This document shows, piece after piece, positions 18,259 through 38,751 of a DNA stretch of 64,000 bases (positions within the stretch are counted from its first letter, which is position 1; every line of letters begins with the position of its first letter). A program made the translations under genes and the position numbers. The notes beneath the pieces are model-generated. The model worked only from the letters and a program-made list of their open reading frames with translations, was not told the origin of the DNA and did not search any database. Origin of the DNA: Chitinophaga pinensis (lineage in GTDB: Bacteria > Bacteroidota > Bacteroidia > 2-12-FULL-35-15); the NCBI GenBank assembly GCA_945885475.1, contig CAMCYR010000011.1:1-64000 (forward strand). Direction: 5' to 3'.

Positions 18259-19845
18259 TTATTGCTTGATAATTTTTTCAATAACAGTAATTTCATTAGA
18301 TATTAGTTTCAAAAAGTAAACTCCCGCTTGTATTGATCTAATGTCAATCAATTGCTCTTCCCGATAATTTAAATCGCATTTTTCAACTTTTACCAATCGT
18401 GAATTGATATCATAGATTCGCAATTCAGCTTTATCATCAGAAAGGAATTGCGGGTATTTAAATTGGATGTGAATAATATCCGTGCTTGGATTTGGGAATA
18501 TTGATAATTTGTGATAAGCAGTATTTTCTTCAACAGATGTAGTACTGCAGATTAATGCGTATGAGCCAGCACCACCTGTTGCAAAGCCTATTCCACCAAC
18601 AACAGAAGTAGTTGGACTAATAACATTTGTTACACAGGAGCTTGTGAAAATTTTTATTCTTCCTCCTCCTGCGCCACCACCCTGATTTCCATCGTTACCA
18701 TCGCCGCTTGTTAATGATTGTGTCCCACAAAAAAAATCACTGTAATTGCAACTTACTCCTAAGCCTCTTGTACCACCAGCGCCACCATTCCCACCTTTTG
18801 CATTTATTATTCCGGTAATGTTCATATAGTTAGGGCAATCTAGATAAATTCCTCCTCCGGAACCACCACCAGCACCACTGCCACCACCAGCACCACACGA
18901 TAAATTTGCTTCACCACAATCATCGCAACCATCACTACAACATTTTGCTGTAACTCCTCCCCCTCCGCCAATTCCACCATTCAGTCCATTTGAACCATTT
19001 GAATAAATCGAACCAGTTATTATTAAGGAGTCGGTAACAACTATTTTTACTAAACCTCCACCGTTTCCACCTTTTCCACCATTTGCACCAGCAATGTACG
19101 AGCGAGCGCCACCGCCACCGCCACCGCCACCTGAACCTAATTCAATATCTGTTGACGTTGGAGTTCCATAAACAGTTCCCGCTATACCGCCTGTTCCGCC
19201 CGGTCCTGCAACAATCGAAAATCCGGTAGAAACATTTACCCCGGAAGCAATGTATGCGTTTGTGCCACTACCTCCATTACCAGCATTGGCTCCTGCTCCC
19301 GCATAACTTCCGCCTGCACCGCCTCCAGCACCACCACCCGAACCAATCATTCCTGCTTCATCATTTGTTGTTAAACATTGCTGTTTCGGCCCTGAACCAT
19401 TTTGTCCATTCGCTCCAGCAAAACCTGCACCAGGTCCATTTCCGTTACTTCCAAGTTTCCCCCCTTCGATTGTTACTTGACCTGTATTATCTTTGTTGCT
19501 ACAACCTGTTAATGAAATAACGTCACCAGTAAGACTAGTCACATTAGCTCCAGCAAGTCCGCCCGTTCCTCCTACATATCCTCCATCATCCGCATTTATA
19601 GTTCCTTGAATAATTGCACTGGCAGCATTAATTTCTAGTATGCCACAGCTACTGCTGGAATATTTGTTTACAAAAACAGTTACACCAGCGGGAACAATAA
19701 ATTTTCCTGTTATGTTATACGTGCCCGACAAAATAATACTGGATGATACCAGATAATCACCTGTAATATTTGTAGTACCACATTGTGCATTTATAAAGGT
19801 TGAACTTAAAAACGAAAAAATGAAAACTGTAATTTTATATTTCAT
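18259..19845 (-). CDS. glycine-rich T9SS-sorted surface protein
   Basis: A 528-residue secreted protein. The longer open frame to 19899 overlaps the upstream gene; the ATG at 19845 gives a good signal peptide (MKYKITVFIFSFLSSTFINA) and is preferred. Residues ~80-430 are dominated by GG, GGG and longer glycine tracts mixed with Ala, Ser and Asn (for example SGGGGGGGGARSY), with cysteine pairs such as CCSDGCDDCGEANLSC. The C-terminal ~80 residues are a T9SS domain (IFPNPSTDI, IYDINSRLV, AGVYFLKL). Such glycine-rich repeats can form polyglycine II-like or beta-solenoid adhesive structures; a specific function is not known. Confidence 0.78.
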   Translation of the reverse strand: MKYKITVFIFSFLSSTFINAQCGTTNITGDYLVSSSIILSGTYNITGKFIVPAGVTVFVNKYSSSSCGILEINAASAIIQGTINADDGGYVGGTGGLAGANVTSLTGDVISLTGCSNKDNTGQVTIEGGKLGSNGNGPGAGFAGANGQNGSGPKQQCLTTNDEAGMIGSGGGAGGGAGGSYAGAGANAGNGGSGTNAYIASGVNVSTGFSIVAGPGGTGGIAGTVYGTPTSTDIELGSGGGGGGGGARSYIAGANGGKGGNGGGLVKIVVTDSLIITGSIYSNGSNGLNGGIGGGGGVTAKCCSDGCDDCGEANLSCGAGGGSGAGGGSGGGIYLDCPNYMNITGIINAKGGNGGAGGTRGLGVSCNYSDFFCGTQSLTSGDGNDGNQGGGAGGGRIKIFTSSCVTNVISPTTSVVGGIGFATGGAGSYALICSTTSVEENTAYHKLSIFPNPSTDIIHIQFKYPQFLSDDKAELRIYDINSRLVKVEKCDLNYREEQLIDIRSIQAGVYFLKLISNEITVIEKIIKQ

Positions 19846-33160: not shown

Positions 33161-35755
33161 TTAATACGTATCAACTAATGATTTGATTTTTATTTTTTTT
33201 TTGAGATCCTTAATTTTTGTATTTGCTCGAAAGTAGATGATCTTCGTTTCATTTGGCAGCAAATCAAAATAATTATCACTCAAATTTATATATTCTCCGT
33301 CAATTGAAATGCAAACATCTTTCGCGAGCACATCTGCACGTAACACAAATGAATTATCTGTCAAATTAGATATTTTTATAGAAGGGTTCAACAGTTTAAA
33401 ATTCTTTGGTTTATCGAAATAATGCAGAGTGATTACATCCGAAACATGGCCTTCTGCTTGCCCAATAGAACACTTTAAAACCACATTTTTAAAATTATAC
33501 TTTTTCAAAATCGACTTATCAAAAGAAAAATAAACTTTCGAAGAATTTGCTGCAATAGAAACCAATTGAGTATTTGACCACAATAACTTTCCAGAAAAGT
33601 CGAATAACTCAGCAATTAAATGATCATATTCCGCTTGATGCTTTAAGTCTGAGATCACAAATACTTTGCAGGAATCACTTTGCTCTTCTATAGAAATAAT
33701 AACATTTTCATACGATCGCTTTACCTGATATTGTGAAGCTTTCCAGTTATTGTAATAATCTACAGTACTCCATGAAGTAACCGGCCAACAATCATTCAAT
33801 TGCCAATACAAAGTTCCCATACAATATGGTTTTGCTCTCCGGTGTGCTTCAATCGCTATTTTCATTCCTTTCGCCTGTAATAACTGTGAAACGTACACAT
33901 AGTCGTTTATTTTATTCGGAACAATATAATCGCGTTCCATGTAGGTTGTAATTGTTTTATATCCTGTCGGATGTTTTTGGTGCGCATTTAAATTAACAGA
34001 GTCAATATCATGTCGGCGGTTCAATATATATTCATCATCATAATCAATAGTACGCTTCGTCCCAACTTGTTCAATTTTAGAATCAAACGCACCAAATCTG
34101 CTTAGTGTATTTAATGCCGGCATGCCCTGAAACCCATATTCACTCATAAAACGACCTAGCTTTTTTTCATACATCTCAAATGTTTCCATCCCCCACCAAA
34201 CACCCCAATAGTGTGAATCACCCTCTTGTAAACTTTCTTTATGCCCCCAACCAATGCTAGGAGAAGAAGGCCAATAAGCTCTGCTCCCGTCGTGTATCCT
34301 AACTAAATCATTAATAAGGTTATCAAATAAAGCGGAATTATTTTGTACTATTTCAGTTGAATCTATTTCTGAATAGTTAAATTGTTTTTGCCAGCCCCAA
34401 TTTTTCCATCCTTCATCTACTTCATTGTTTCCACACCACAATGCAATACTGGGATGAGTGCGTAAACGCTCCACCTGACCAATCACTTCCTCCGCTACAT
34501 TCTCAATAAAATGATCGTCACCGGGATACATGGCACAAGCAAACATAAAATCCTGCCAAACTAAAATTCCATTTTTATCACACGCTGTATAAAAAGCATC
34601 ATCTGCATAAACGCCTCCGCCCCATACACGCAGCATATTCATATTTGCATCAACCGCATTTTTAATAGTTATAGTATAATCCTCTTCTTGCAATCGCGGT
34701 AAAAAATTATCTTGTGGAATATAATTGGCGCCCTTCATAAAAACAGGAATGCCATTTAACTTAAAATAAAAACTTTTCCCTATACTATCTTTATCTTGAA
34801 TCAATTCGATGGTACGCAAGCCAATATCAATTCGTTTCCTATCAAGAAAACGAGAGTCATAAGAAAGACTTACTTCAAAATTGTATAATGTGGGAAAACC
34901 CAAACCATTGCTCCACCATCTCTGAGGATTTTTCACATTATAAAAAACAGAATATGTATGAATTCCTTTTTTAAGCTTTAGTTTAGAAATGATCTGACCA
35001 CTATAATCGATTTTATTTCCCTTCATTATTTCGAGATAGGCATTTGCATCTACATCACTTTGTATCTCACAAACAAACTCCAATTCGGCAAGAGTATCTG
35101 ATAAGGACTGTTGGATATACTTTACATTTAGAATCCTCGCGTCGCTCCAACTGAGCATTGTCACATTTTTCCATATTCCACAGGTCACAAAACGAGGACC
35201 CCAATCCCAACCATATTGATACTGCGCTTTTCTCGTAAATACTTTTTCATCGCCAGGTAAAGTGTAAGCAAGTTTTTTTGCTTCTACTTTCCCTCTCTTT
35301 ACAGCCGATTCAAACACAACTTGTAATTTATTTTTTCCTTTGTGCACATATTTTTTAACATCGGACTTCCAGCTCCGGAACATGTTATCAGCAGTAAGAA
35401 TAAGTGAATCGTTTACGAAGACCTTAGCATAGGTGTCCAAGCCATCAAATTTCAATTCAATATGAGATTGTAACAATTCTGATCTCGAAACTAAAAAGGT
35501 AGTTTGATATTCCCAATCTTCATTTTCGATCCACTGCAACTCTTTTTCATTATCAGCATAAAATGGATCAGGTATACGTTTATTATAGAATAGGTCGGTG
35601 TGAACTGTTCCGGGAACACGGGCTTTCAACCATTTTTTATCACTCGCCCTTTTGAATTCCCATTTATTTTTTATGAATTTTTTTTCAAGCATCTGCGCAG
35701 GTAGCACAAAAGGGAACATGATTACAAATAAATATTTTAACAAACGACTCTTCAC
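33161..35755 (-). CDS. GH2 beta-mannosidase
   Basis: An 864-residue secreted enzyme with a 20-residue signal peptide. It has the GH2 sugar-binding domain (GLDTYAKVFVND), the beta-sandwich and a TIM barrel with MLRVWGGGVYADDAFY and WQDFMFACAMYP. The acid/base Glu is in WCGNNEVDEGW (~440) and the nucleophile Glu in MSEYGFQGMP (~538); both are intact. These sequences are characteristic of beta-mannosidases, which cut the core Man-beta-1,4-GlcNAc of N-glycans. It overlaps cutC by 4 nt (ATGA) at its start and ends 1 nt before GH92. Confidence 0.92.
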   Translation of the reverse strand: MKSRLLKYLFVIMFPFVLPAQMLEKKFIKNKWEFKRASDKKWLKARVPGTVHTDLFYNKRIPDPFYADNEKELQWIENEDWEYQTTFLVSRSELLQSHIELKFDGLDTYAKVFVNDSLILTADNMFRSWKSDVKKYVHKGKNKLQVVFESAVKRGKVEAKKLAYTLPGDEKVFTRKAQYQYGWDWGPRFVTCGIWKNVTMLSWSDARILNVKYIQQSLSDTLAELEFVCEIQSDVDANAYLEIMKGNKIDYSGQIISKLKLKKGIHTYSVFYNVKNPQRWWSNGLGFPTLYNFEVSLSYDSRFLDRKRIDIGLRTIELIQDKDSIGKSFYFKLNGIPVFMKGANYIPQDNFLPRLQEEDYTITIKNAVDANMNMLRVWGGGVYADDAFYTACDKNGILVWQDFMFACAMYPGDDHFIENVAEEVIGQVERLRTHPSIALWCGNNEVDEGWKNWGWQKQFNYSEIDSTEIVQNNSALFDNLINDLVRIHDGSRAYWPSSPSIGWGHKESLQEGDSHYWGVWWGMETFEMYEKKLGRFMSEYGFQGMPALNTLSRFGAFDSKIEQVGTKRTIDYDDEYILNRRHDIDSVNLNAHQKHPTGYKTITTYMERDYIVPNKINDYVYVSQLLQAKGMKIAIEAHRRAKPYCMGTLYWQLNDCWPVTSWSTVDYYNNWKASQYQVKRSYENVIISIEEQSDSCKVFVISDLKHQAEYDHLIAELFDFSGKLLWSNTQLVSIAANSSKVYFSFDKSILKKYNFKNVVLKCSIGQAEGHVSDVITLHYFDKPKNFKLLNPSIKISNLTDNSFVLRADVLAKDVCISIDGEYINLSDNYFDLLPNETKIIYFRANTKIKDLKKKIKIKSLVDTY

Positions 35756-36420
35756 GATAATTTCTCTTTAAGCAATTTCACTTCTTCCAAATCAGCTCTA
35801 TCATTTTTCACAATTGCAGAAGAATGATAATAAGGGGTTTCGACTTTCGACTTGAGCAATTCAAGATTTGATGAACGAACTCCCCCTCCGGGCATAATGA
35901 CAATTCTGCCATTTGACAACTTTACTAACTCAGTCAATTGCTCAACTCCTTCTATAGCCGATTTTCTTTGTCCTGAAGTAAGAATAGTTTTAAATCCACA
36001 AGCAATTAAATCTTCCAAATTTTTAGTAAAATCTCCAGAAACATCAAAAGCCCTATGGAAGGTGCAAGGCATTGGTTTAGACAATTCTACCAGTTCTTTG
36101 TTTTGATTTACATTTACACTTCCATCTTCATTCAATATTCCGAATACAAATCCATCCGCCTTCATTTTTTTAAAATGCAGGATGTCTTTTTTCATTTGTC
36201 CGAACTCCGTTTCAGAATAAACAAAATTTCCAGCCCGAGGCCGAATCATGACAAACAGATCCAGATCAATTAATTTTCTGGCTGTTTCAACTGTTCCATG
36301 ATTCGGAGTAATTCCTCCTGAAGAGAAGTCGTCACACAACTCTATTCTGTCGGCGCCACCTTGCTGAGCAATGAGTGCTGATTCCAGATTAAAACAAGCT
36401 ATTTCAAGTTTTGCGTTCAT
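35752..36420 (-). CDS. cutC: CutC family protein
   Basis: A 222-residue TIM-barrel protein. The family pattern is clear: LEIACFNLESALIAQQGGADRIELCDD at the start (cited as IACFNLESA and GADRIELCDD), GGITPNHG, MIRPRAGNF, FHRAFDV, ILTSGQ and IMPGGGVRSSNL. CutC is named for copper homeostasis in E. coli, but its true biochemical role is unsettled. In Bacteroidota it commonly sits beside glycan genes, so a link to sugar metabolism is plausible. It overlaps the beta-mannosidase by 4 nt. The 61 nt upstream consist of the degenerate last copy of the 81-bp repeat, so any promoter would lie within repeat DNA. Confidence 0.9.
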   Translation of the reverse strand: MNAKLEIACFNLESALIAQQGGADRIELCDDFSSGGITPNHGTVETARKLIDLDLFVMIRPRAGNFVYSETEFGQMKKDILHFKKMKADGFVFGILNEDGSVNVNQNKELVELSKPMPCTFHRAFDVSGDFTKNLEDLIACGFKTILTSGQRKSAIEGVEQLTELVKLSNGRIVIMPGGGVRSSNLELLKSKVETPYYHSSAIVKNDRADLEEVKLLKEKLS

Positions 36421-36426
36421 TTTTTA

Positions 36427-37025
36427 TTCTTCCTTGGAGAAAGGTTTAGGGGGATTGATTTCGTTTCTTCTTTTGAGGCTATTATTGGTAAAGTAAATCT
36501 TGCTCTTCCCCCTTGGAGAAGGGGGCTAAAGGGATTGAGTTCGTTTCTTCTTTTGTGGCTATTATTGACAATGTAACTTCTTGCTCTTCCACCTTGGTGA
36601 AGGGGGTTAGGAGGATTGATTTCGTTTCTTCTTTTGAGGCTATGATTGGTAATGTAACTTCTTGCTCTTCCCCCTTGGAGAAGGAGGCTAAAGTGATTGA
36701 TTTCGTTTCTTCTTTTGTGGCTATTATTGATAATGTAATTTCTTGCTCTCCCCCCTTGGTGAAGGGGGCTAGGGGGATTGAGTTCGTTTCTTCTTTTGAG
36801 GCTATTATTGGTAATGTAACTTCTTGCTCTTCCCCCTTGGAGAAGGGGGTTAGGAGGATTGACTTCGTTTCTTCTTTTGAGGCTATGATTGGTAATGTAA
36901 CTTCTTGCTCTTCCCCCTTGAAGAAGGGGGTTAGGGGGATTGACTTCGTTTCTTCTTTTGTGGCTATTATTGATAATGTAACTTCTTGCTCTTCCCCCTT
37001 GAAGAAGGGGGTTAGGGGGATTGAC
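36427..37025. repeat. 81-bp palindrome-bearing tandem repeat array (about 7 copies plus a degenerate one)
   Basis: Seven near-identical 81-bp units plus one degenerate unit (36427-36500). Each contains a hairpin CCCCCTT-NNNN-AAGGGGG (for example 36994-37011), then TAGGGGGATTGA and a conserved GTTTCTTCTTTTG stretch. Units alternate between two subtypes (GTGGCTATTATTG and GAGGCTATGATTG). The period is divisible by three, so the array is translated on the minus strand as a 27-residue repeat. Whole units are repeated without unique spacers, so it is not a CRISPR. Confidence 0.93.
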
Positions 37026-37381
37026 TCATTTTCAATGAATTCCTCAATATAAATATTCATTGCTCTTCTAACATTTTCAAAATCGTATTTTACATCATGC
37101 TCGGTAAACCTAATTACTTTATATCCTAGTTCATTTAATCTTTTATCTCTCTTAATATCGGTATCATATTTAAACTGATGAGAATATCCATCTACTTCAA
37201 TAACAAGTTTTAAACTTCGTGAAATAAAATCTACAATAAAGTTTTCAATTGAATATTGACGATTGAATTGATAACCTGTCTGTTTCCTGCTTAACAAATT
37301 TTTCCATAATAATATCTCACCGAAAGTAGAATTTTTTCTATTTTCTCGAGCGAATGGTTTTAGTTCCTTATTATAAGTCAT
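36482..37381 (-). CDS. DUF559 endonuclease-domain protein with C-terminal 27-residue repeats
   Basis: Residues 1-117 are a complete DUF559 domain, related to Vsr-type and restriction nuclease folds: an EILLWKNLL helix, FNRQYSIENFIVDF (Asp51), LVIEVDGYSH (Glu62, Asp64, His68) and LGYKVIRFTEHDV. The candidate catalytic acidic residues are intact. Residues ~118-299 are seven copies of a 27-residue unit (IPLTPFFKGE then EQEVTLSIIATKEETKS), which is the translated palindromic repeat array. A one-base deletion near 36490-36500 shifts the frame in the last unit and creates the stop codon. DUF559 proteins are often found with such translated palindromes; the biological role is unknown. Confidence 0.85.
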   Translation of the reverse strand: MTYNKELKPFARENRKNSTFGEILLWKNLLSRKQTGYQFNRQYSIENFIVDFISRSLKLVIEVDGYSHQFKYDTDIKRDKRLNELGYKVIRFTEHDVKYDFENVRRAMNIYIEEFIENESIPLTPFFKGEEQEVTLSIIATKEETKSIPLTPFFKGEEQEVTLPIIASKEETKSILLTPFSKGEEQEVTLPIIASKEETNSIPLAPFTKGGEQEITLSIIATKEETKSITLASFSKGEEQEVTLPIIASKEETKSILLTPFTKVEEQEVTLSIIATKEETNSIPLAPFSKGEEQDLLYQ

Positions 37382-37403
37382 ATTTCTTTACAATTGTGAT
37401 ACC

Positions 37404-37614
37404 CAACATCAATCCCCCTAGCCCCCTTCTCCAAGGGGGAAGTGTCCTTATTGAAATTTTACTGTACTATTAAAATTTAAATCGCCAACATCAATCCCAA
37501 TAGCTCCCTTCTCCAAGGGGGAAGTGTCCTTATTGAAATTTTACTTTACTATTAAAATCAAAAGCGCCAACATCAAACCACTATACCTTTCTCAAAGGGG
37601 GAAGTGGCTATTCT
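37404..37614. repeat. second repeat array, three ~82-bp units in inverted orientation
   Basis: Three units begin near 37404, 37486 and 37568 (CAACATCAA). The first has the hairpin CCCCCTT-CTCC-AAGGGGG (37422-37439); the second and third are progressively degraded. The palindrome is the same as in the DUF559 array but on the opposite strand, and the sequence between palindromes (GTGTCCTTATTGAAATTTTAC) is unrelated to that array. It lies between the glycosylasparaginase and DUF559 genes. Confidence 0.85.
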
Positions 37615-37639: not shown

Positions 37640-38632
37640 CTACTTTAGATAATAATCTGCATCAATCAAGTTATTTCCATTCGCATCATATACCGCATAA
37701 TTAAAACCACTTTGTACGCAATACGAACCATATTCCCCTTTTTTATTCAAGGCTATAAAACCGACCTGAATATCTTTTAAATTCTTTTTTCTCTTAGCTG
37801 TTAGGTTCACTACTCTACCCACCGCTTCTTTACAAGCGTCTTCAGGACTTTTACCTTGCCGCATTAACTCAACAACTAAATGACAGCCAGCAATACGAAT
37901 CACTTCTTCACCATGCCCGGTTGCTGTTGCCGCTCCAATTTCATTATCGACATATAATCCAGCTCCGATAATAGGAGAATCGCCAACTCTGCCATGCATT
38001 TTATAAGCCATTCCACTGGTCGTGCAAGCTCCGGATAAATCACCATTGGCATCCAATGCAATCATTCCAATCGTATCGTGATTTTCAATATTAACAATCG
38101 GTTTATAATTACTACTCTTCAACCAATCCTGCCATTCTTTTTCAGATGCCTCCACTAATAAATTTTCTTTCTTGAAACCTTGCGACAATGCAAACTGAAA
38201 TGCTCCATCGCCAACCAACATCACATGGGGTGTTTTTTCCATAACGGCTCTCGCCACAGAAATAGGATGTTTTATAAATTCTAAACATGCCACAGATCCA
38301 ATATTTGCATTTTCATCCATAATACATGCATCGAGTGTTACGCGTCCATCTCTATCAGGTCTTCCGCCATATCCTACACTCCTTTCAGTTGGATCGCCTT
38401 CCGGGATCTTCACTCCTGCTTCAACAGCATCTAAGGCTTTACCATTTTTAATGAGAATTTCCCAAGCGGCTTCATTAGCCTTTAAACCGAAATTCCAGGT
38501 AGACAAAACGATTGGTTTTGATGGAGTAAAGCTGTTTTGATGCAGCTTTAATTCTGCTGCATCCGATTTATTTACTAATAAAGCGGCCGATGCAAAAGCA
38601 CTTGTTTTAATAAAATTGCGTCTGGTAGTCAT
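37640..38632 (-). CDS. glycosylasparaginase (N4-(beta-N-acetylglucosaminyl)-L-asparaginase)
   Basis: A 330-residue Ntn-hydrolase that cuts the GlcNAc-Asn bond of N-glycoproteins. The ATG at 38632 gives a twin-arginine signal (MTTRRNFIKTSAFASAALL), so it is exported folded; the frame extends 11 codons further upstream without support. The autocatalytic cleavage site is NHDTIGM with Thr187 as the new N-terminal nucleophile. GRVGDSPIIGAGLY and ATGHGEEVIRI complete the substrate site, and ERSVGYGGRPDRDG is typical. It fits the surrounding glycan-degrading genes. Confidence 0.92.
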   Translation of the reverse strand: MTTRRNFIKTSAFASAALLVNKSDAAELKLHQNSFTPSKPIVLSTWNFGLKANEAAWEILIKNGKALDAVEAGVKIPEGDPTERSVGYGGRPDRDGRVTLDACIMDENANIGSVACLEFIKHPISVARAVMEKTPHVMLVGDGAFQFALSQGFKKENLLVEASEKEWQDWLKSSNYKPIVNIENHDTIGMIALDANGDLSGACTTSGMAYKMHGRVGDSPIIGAGLYVDNEIGAATATGHGEEVIRIAGCHLVVELMRQGKSPEDACKEAVGRVVNLTAKRKKNLKDIQVGFIALNKKGEYGSYCVQSGFNYAVYDANGNNLIDADYYLK

Positions 38633-38751
38633 ATATTTAAAGGGTTTTAGCACCTTCGATTTCAAATAGGAAATAAAAAAAGGTCTATTAGAAACCGAAG
38701 AGTATTATACATTTACAAAGTAGTTTTTCTTACGTACTAATTTAGATATTT

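Follow-up and report, generated by a model that had tools for sequence, protein, structure and literature searches.

A DUF559 nuclease gene bracketed by inverted hairpin repeats as a candidate enzyme of a REP/REPIN-like system

The DUF559 gene and its hairpin arrays

The window, by which we mean the whole stretch of 64,000 nucleotides analysed here, carries a DUF559 nuclease gene between a cutC-like gene and an N4-(beta-N-acetylglucosaminyl)asparaginase-like gene (Table 1). According to the original prediction, a complete DUF559 domain is fused in frame to seven 81-bp hairpin units, and both parts were borne out. PF04480 matched residues 6-107 of the 299-aa ORF (E = 2.8e-27), and the array was recovered with seven in-frame CCCCCTTN4AAGGGGG hairpins, five of them perfect and two with one mismatch, where a shuffled window is expected to yield 0.06. 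The protein consists of DUF559 and the repeat peptide only; most homologues are 110-150 aa long. The units had also been called near identical and recently expanded: the first wording was a little strong, given the match level found by TRF, and the second fits the count of no more than two hairpins at this locus in the close relative G031.

The ORF stops because of a one-base deletion in the last unit (GAGCAAGATTTACTTTACC versus GAGCAAGAAGTTACATTACC). The 81-bp array extends beyond this stop, and a decayed eighth unit adjoins the cutC start. On the other side of the gene we found the same REP-like unit in an inverted, non-coding array, which was missing from the original prediction, as that covered one side only. 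With one array in the tail and an inverted one upstream, the gene thus has inverted copies at both ends.

Table 1. Features of the DUF559 locus (positions in the window)
Feature	Position	Strand	Details
cutC-like gene	35752..36420	-	Neighbour, given as context; G009, G031 and G033 have the same neighbour
Tandem array	36432..37024		Period 81, 7.3 copies, 88% matches (TRF); seven hairpin units in frame, PLAPFSKGE...
DUF559 nuclease ORF with translated repeat tail	36482..37381	-	299 aa, ATG at 37381; ORF call and profile match
Last in-ORF hairpin	36508..36525		Perfect
In-ORF hairpin	36589..36606		One mismatch
In-ORF hairpin	36670..36687		One mismatch
In-ORF hairpin	36751..36768		Perfect
In-ORF hairpin	36832..36849		Perfect
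In-ORF hairpin	36913..36930		Perfect
REP-like unit adjoining the domain, downstream	36994..37024	-	Head TCAATCCCCCTAA, hairpin CCCCCTTCTTCAAGGGGG (in-frame hairpin at 36994); head facing the gene
DUF559 (PF04480) catalytic domain	37061..37366	-	Asp51, Glu62, Asp64, His68, Asp75; PF04480 match, conservation, AF2, PDB 3hrl and 3r3p
Upstream array	37403..37606		Same REP-like unit inverted, 2.5 x 82 bp, non-coding, 5' of the ATG
Upstream REP-like unit closest to the gene	37408..37441	+	Head ATCAATCCCCCTAG, hairpin CCCCCTTCTCCAAGGGGG
Second upstream hairpin	37504..37521	+	One mismatch
N4-(beta-N-acetylglucosaminyl)asparaginase-like gene	37640..38665	-	Neighbour, named from its sequence

Each repeat unit comprises a short palindrome and a C-rich unpaired head. 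In the window class, the head AATCCCCCTAG accompanies the hairpin CCCCCTTNNNNAAGGGGG (CCCCCTT..AAGGGGG), and the unit as one oligo-length sequence is AATCCCCCTAGCCCCCTTCTCCAAGGGGGAA. Further head-hairpin classes include ACACACCCCTAA-CCCCTCTCAAGAGGGG, CCTCACCCCTAA-CCCCTCTCCnnnGGAGAGGGG and others; ACACACCCCTAACCCCTCTCAAGAGGGG is the sequence of another class. A PADLOC run for defence systems gave zero matches, and a short tandem repeat, (CGCCAC)4, lies at 19107-19131 of the window.

Inverted hairpins of matching class at DUF559 loci

DUF559 loci were gathered by protein search alone, giving 38 loci in the genus, 75 from many phyla and 16 plasmid-collection records. The genus set held 36 genomes with 38 standalone loci, other genera and phyla gave 80 loci, 75 of which were counted as standalone, and the 16 plasmid-collection records came from Neisseria, Azospirillum, Deinococcus, cyanobacteria and others. 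We scored hairpins with a stem of 6-7 and C-outer arms, an earlier threshold of at least 8 having missed the window's own 7-bp stems. The DNA compared was the stretches around the matches, and "near" means within about 300 bp of DUF559.

The results showed that the density of C-outer hairpins within this distance of DUF559 was 21-171 times that of distal DNA in the three locus sets, many of the counted loci being orthologous and non-independent. Such a hairpin was present at 32 of the 38 standalone genus loci, with 72 hairpins in 24 kb of near DNA versus 9 in 516 kb of far DNA; the expected near count was 0.42, so hairpins cluster beside DUF559 above expectation. Other phyla gave a similar picture (59 of 75 loci; 144 in 48 kb near versus 40 in 784 kb far, 2.5 expected near), as did the plasmid set (14 of 16 records; 31 in 11 kb near versus 9 in 68 kb far). 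The strict C-outer hairpin was absent at 6/38 genus loci and 16/75 distant loci. The mirror control GGGG..CCCC was not enriched near DUF559 in the genus (0 near, 4 far) and only slightly elsewhere (4 near, 2 far). A gonococcal DUF559 locus has C-rich hairpin repeats on both sides, and phage records gave one match in 50,697.

Flanking hairpins were inverted in 87 of 99 orientable pairs (p = 3e-15), and their outer six arm bases were common to both flanks at 75 of 105 loci, compared with a mean of 23 and a maximum of 35 after shuffling. The heads mostly point in at standalone DUF559 genes, whereas they point out in 17/17 scorable in-ORF copies, and this split tracks the DUF559 tree (4 changes versus 15-21 with shuffling).

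The hairpins have also diversified together with the nuclease. On a tree of 138 DUF559 domains, built from few columns and with many open forks, hairpin class (assigned by script) changed 31 times, versus 83-101 times with shuffled labels. Every genome with at least two classed standalone DUF559 genes had a different hairpin class at each (10/10), and therefore the composition of the host genome is not the cause. For three classes, the hairpin was found in 22/22 genome-class pairs with a cognate DUF559, assigned by flank or clade, versus 11/84 without; when copies at the DUF559 locus were excluded, the counts were 19/22 versus 11/84 (p = 1e-10), and the reversed-pattern control gave 0. G008 and G018 were excluded from the CCCCCTT row because their three-base loop was unmatched by the first pattern. 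Over phyla, a DUF559 of the CCCCCTT class went together with hairpins of that class in 12 of 13 genomes, and the hairpins occurred in 4 of 30 others. Hairpins are thus far rarer where the cognate DUF559 is missing.

These findings indicate that the association of nuclease and hairpin holds beyond one gene and is seen across many bacterial phyla. The general, RAYT-like physical link that had been proposed from the window is upheld by the clustering, the inverted pairing, the co-diversification and the recurrence over many phyla.

Dispersed copies and in-frame inserts

Copies away from the DUF559 locus were found in 11 of the 12 CCCCCTT-positive cognate genomes, with 98 in a Nitrospirota genome and 37 in a Chloroflexi genome. 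The genome that contains the window has 22 exact hairpin copies at about 10 places, including the DUF559 locus, and 0 matches to the reversed pattern. The 81-bp unit occurs at two places in it without DUF559, as arrays on contigs C19 and C34. These two intergenic arrays (L012 4704-5027 and L014 4816-5221) were missing in G027 at both sites and in G009 at the L012 site. pyrF of the same genome carries just the hairpin, in frame, and the hairpin found there in G009 is of a different class. A different palindrome adjoins the single Y1 transposase gene of this genome.

Comparison with close relatives showed solo and array sites that were filled, empty or occupied by another class. G031 has a filled C48 site and G027 an empty one; the C35 site holds CCCCCTT in G000 and G009 and CCCCTCT in G027. 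Copies in G013 (106 in all), G003, G007 and G009 are often paired, inverted and heads-out, at a spacing of 101-134 bp (about 105 bp overall); the inner ends of such pairs are conserved (AATTGATCCTGC...GCAGGATCAATT). Contig 7 of the window's genome has two heads-out pairs 137 bp apart. No obvious target-site duplication was seen at these doublets, and among relatives at about 75-95% DNA identity there was no exact empty site at high identity.

In four genomes (G003, G007, G009 and G014), a hairpin class persists although the cognate DUF559 is missing or broken; such orphan classes could reflect gene loss or another mobiliser. The DUF559 of G014 is broken, yet 72 copies of another class are present, the state that enzyme loss is expected to leave. 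At L261 (G014:C3:71.6-71.9 kb), three hairpins lie beside the DUF559 pseudogene, the repeats outlasting the enzyme.

Fused DUF559 ORFs had been chosen as negative controls, and several of them hold the same hairpins inside the ORF; in-frame inserts were found in this way. In the genus, a heads-out pair encloses DUF559 in frame in leuS (5 genomes), acs (4 genomes) and metH (8 at one site, 1 at another), and further hosts are a PaaZ-like gene and a BadF-type ATPase gene, host genes being named from their sequences. The second DUF559 domain of the window's genome lies within a 1374-aa MetH. The conserved sequence of the host proteins is intact on both sides of the insert, and the inserts (about 130-180 aa) show no sign of a splicing domain. 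The leuS site is empty in about 20 relatives, has a solo hairpin in G018 and G029, and holds DUF559 in five; the metH site likewise has empty, solo-hairpin and DUF559 alleles.

Several smaller observations concern the inserts. The MetH insert of the window's genome (L017 1088-5212, contig C28) lies between NVALSDFIKPK and DYIGAFALTTG. In G027 MetH (L189), a CGTC-like repeat, CGTCACCCTGAGCGGAGTCGAAGGG, stands in frame in the same loop that holds DUF559 elsewhere. In the in-ORF inserts (L165-L184), the upstream hairpin and the domain are joined by a common conserved linker, roughly P-x-Y-x-T-A-D/N. L145, L147, L153 and L110, from several phyla, have DUF559 and hairpin units in frame in apparent Type II R-M methylase genes.

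The DUF559 nuclease and a candidate repeat system

Asp51, Glu62 and Asp64 had been put forward as candidate acidic residues, and all three are conserved in homologues: among 66, including in-ORF copies, Glu62, Asp64, His68 and Asp75 never vary and Asp51 hardly does. The AlphaFold2 model of the domain (pLDDT 87) resembles 3hrl, the solved structure of the Neisseria protein NGO0050 from the same DUF559 family (E = 1.2e-30; model TM 0.70), and the homing endonuclease I-Bth0305I (3r3p; E = 3.4e-5; Foldseek E = 1e-4; TM 0.68). With Vsr (TM 0.50-0.55) the likeness is one of fold alone. The catalytic domain is homologous to that of the EDxHD homing endonucleases and Vsr; unlike these, DUF559 has no intron, intein or added DNA-binding domain, an extra DNA-binding region for a long target being absent from it, and is tied to palindromic repeats. 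In Caulobacter, the DUF559 protein VsrA is considered a mismatch-repair endonuclease, and a DUF559 protein provokes a DNA damage response in vivo when the ScmA methylase is missing (PMC12907096). In view of this response, the DUF559 family probably acts on DNA, and VsrA makes another role for DUF559 possible.

In structure, the arrangement is like RAYT-REP/REPIN (Nunvar 2010, PMC2817692; Bertels 2011, PMC3116915). One enzyme gene lies between two inverted REPs, there is one class per enzyme copy with several distinct enzymes per genome, and solo REPs, inverted doublets and tandem clusters are dispersed, the doublets following the REPIN plan (PMC3116915). It is nevertheless not a member of that system. 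The enzyme here is a PD-(D/E)XK/EDxHD-type nuclease (PF04480) and there a Y1 HUH transposase (PF01797); DUF559 heads are a C run (AATCCCCCTAR, ACACACCCCTAR, CCTCACCCC), whereas the RAYT REP head is GT(A/G)G; and the DUF559 gene itself also occurs as an in-frame insert. GTAG/CGTC repeats and Rickettsia palindromic elements (PMC3733652, PMC10969869) are likewise short dispersed palindromes found in frame in unrelated genes, but no GTAG or CGTC tag was seen at the DUF559 hairpins, which do have their own enzyme gene; the CGTC class is reported to have no dedicated transposase (PMC3733652).

We favour, with some reserve, the reading that a REP/REPIN-like repeat system has DUF559 as its dedicated enzyme, a Vsr/I-Bth0305I-type nuclease replacing the tyrosine transposase. 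From the sequences we infer that DUF559 recognises and cleaves the hairpin and that the repeats are thereby copied or mobilised. The basic unit would be the nuclease gene between two inverted repeat copies, from which solo copies, heads-out doublets and tandem arrays would derive. The Vsr/I-Bth0305I-like nuclease would nick or cut repeats of its own class, at the head or in the hairpin, in cis or in trans, and repair would then copy REPs or doublets to new places or to an empty allele; candidate routes are template switching, gene conversion and capture of an excised hairpin strand. Because the 3' repeat has no stop in the DUF559 frame, it is read as a protein tail, and in the window this copy may have expanded into the 27-codon repeat. 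In a sister lineage, the element is a heads-out doublet enclosing DUF559, which forms one open frame throughout and lies inside housekeeping genes left unbroken.

The LeuS and MetH sites, which hold DUF559 in several species and are empty or carry a solo hairpin elsewhere, would also suit a homing element, as would the use of the same MetH site by two DUF559 lineages and the homology and fold match to I-Bth0305I. DUF559 would then cut unoccupied alleles at its own site (LeuS, MetH, Acs, R-M genes, fixed intergenic loci) and be copied in by recombination, the hairpins marking or protecting its ends and the dispersed ones being by-products. We consider this unlikely. It accounts for neither the REPIN-like doublets nor the scattered cognate hairpins, which number in the tens and reach 106 in G013; a splicing domain is absent, and standalone copies sit mostly at varied intergenic places.

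It is improbable that something else moves the repeats (RAYT/Y1, another transposase or replication slippage) and that DUF559 binds or processes the hairpins, for example to remove cruciforms or limit REP spread. G033, G035 and G016 have no Y1 match yet carry 2-3 hairpin families each, and among 30 Y1 loci, many bear other palindromes and only 4 lie within about 3 kb of any C-outer hairpin. The persistence of hairpin families where the cognate DUF559 was not found fits such a mover, and the Vsr fold suits a repair role, but the two flanks switch class in step, as expected of a self-linked unit.

That the hairpins merely terminate or attenuate transcription of a small gene and are translated by accident is very improbable: they are G+C-rich and adjoin a short gene, but they flank it as inverted copies, have no run of T following the stem, occur inside the open frames of LeuS, MetH, Acs and pyrF and are dispersed over the genome, and termination does not account for the class matching between flanks and dispersed copies. 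Chance, with a REP landing by one DUF559 gene, local slippage amplifying it and the rest being coincidence, is hardly credible, since the 81-bp arrays on C19 and C34 without DUF559 would fit it but the 59-171 fold enrichment at protein-chosen loci, its replication in independent phyla and the near/far and class-matrix tests refute it.

REP-like palindromes rank with the most common repeats of bacteria, and RAYTs are, to our knowledge, the sole enzymes so far tied to them. A nuclease co-diversifying with its own palindrome would supply a dedicated enzyme, provide a role for a large protein family whose function is unknown and explain the repeat-peptide tails of DUF559 proteins. It would also open a testable route for the in-frame entry of repeats into essential genes. 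We give roughly even chances to the wider reading that DUF559 is a second, independently evolved enzyme class mobilising REP/REPIN-type repeats bacteria-wide, one branch being an in-frame mobile element inside essential genes (leuS, metH, acs) without splicing. We regard it as a variant of something known, namely a repeat system that has an enzyme to itself, with an enzyme of a type not known in that role. No description of a DUF559-palindrome system was found in the open-access literature, closed journals and most preprints lying outside this scope.

Among other candidate partners, a RAYT was rejected, with no GTAG head and no Y1 gene beside the hairpins, and a scan of 16 records for a CGTC motif beside DUF559 gave nothing consistent. 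The Y1_Tnp loci of the genus (L007 C6:41049, L295-L323) often have palindromes of their own (CAACGGATTTAAATCCGTTG, CCACGACCTnnAGGTCGTGG, TTTGCAGGTG..CACCTGCAAA) and seem to be separate RAYT-REP sets.
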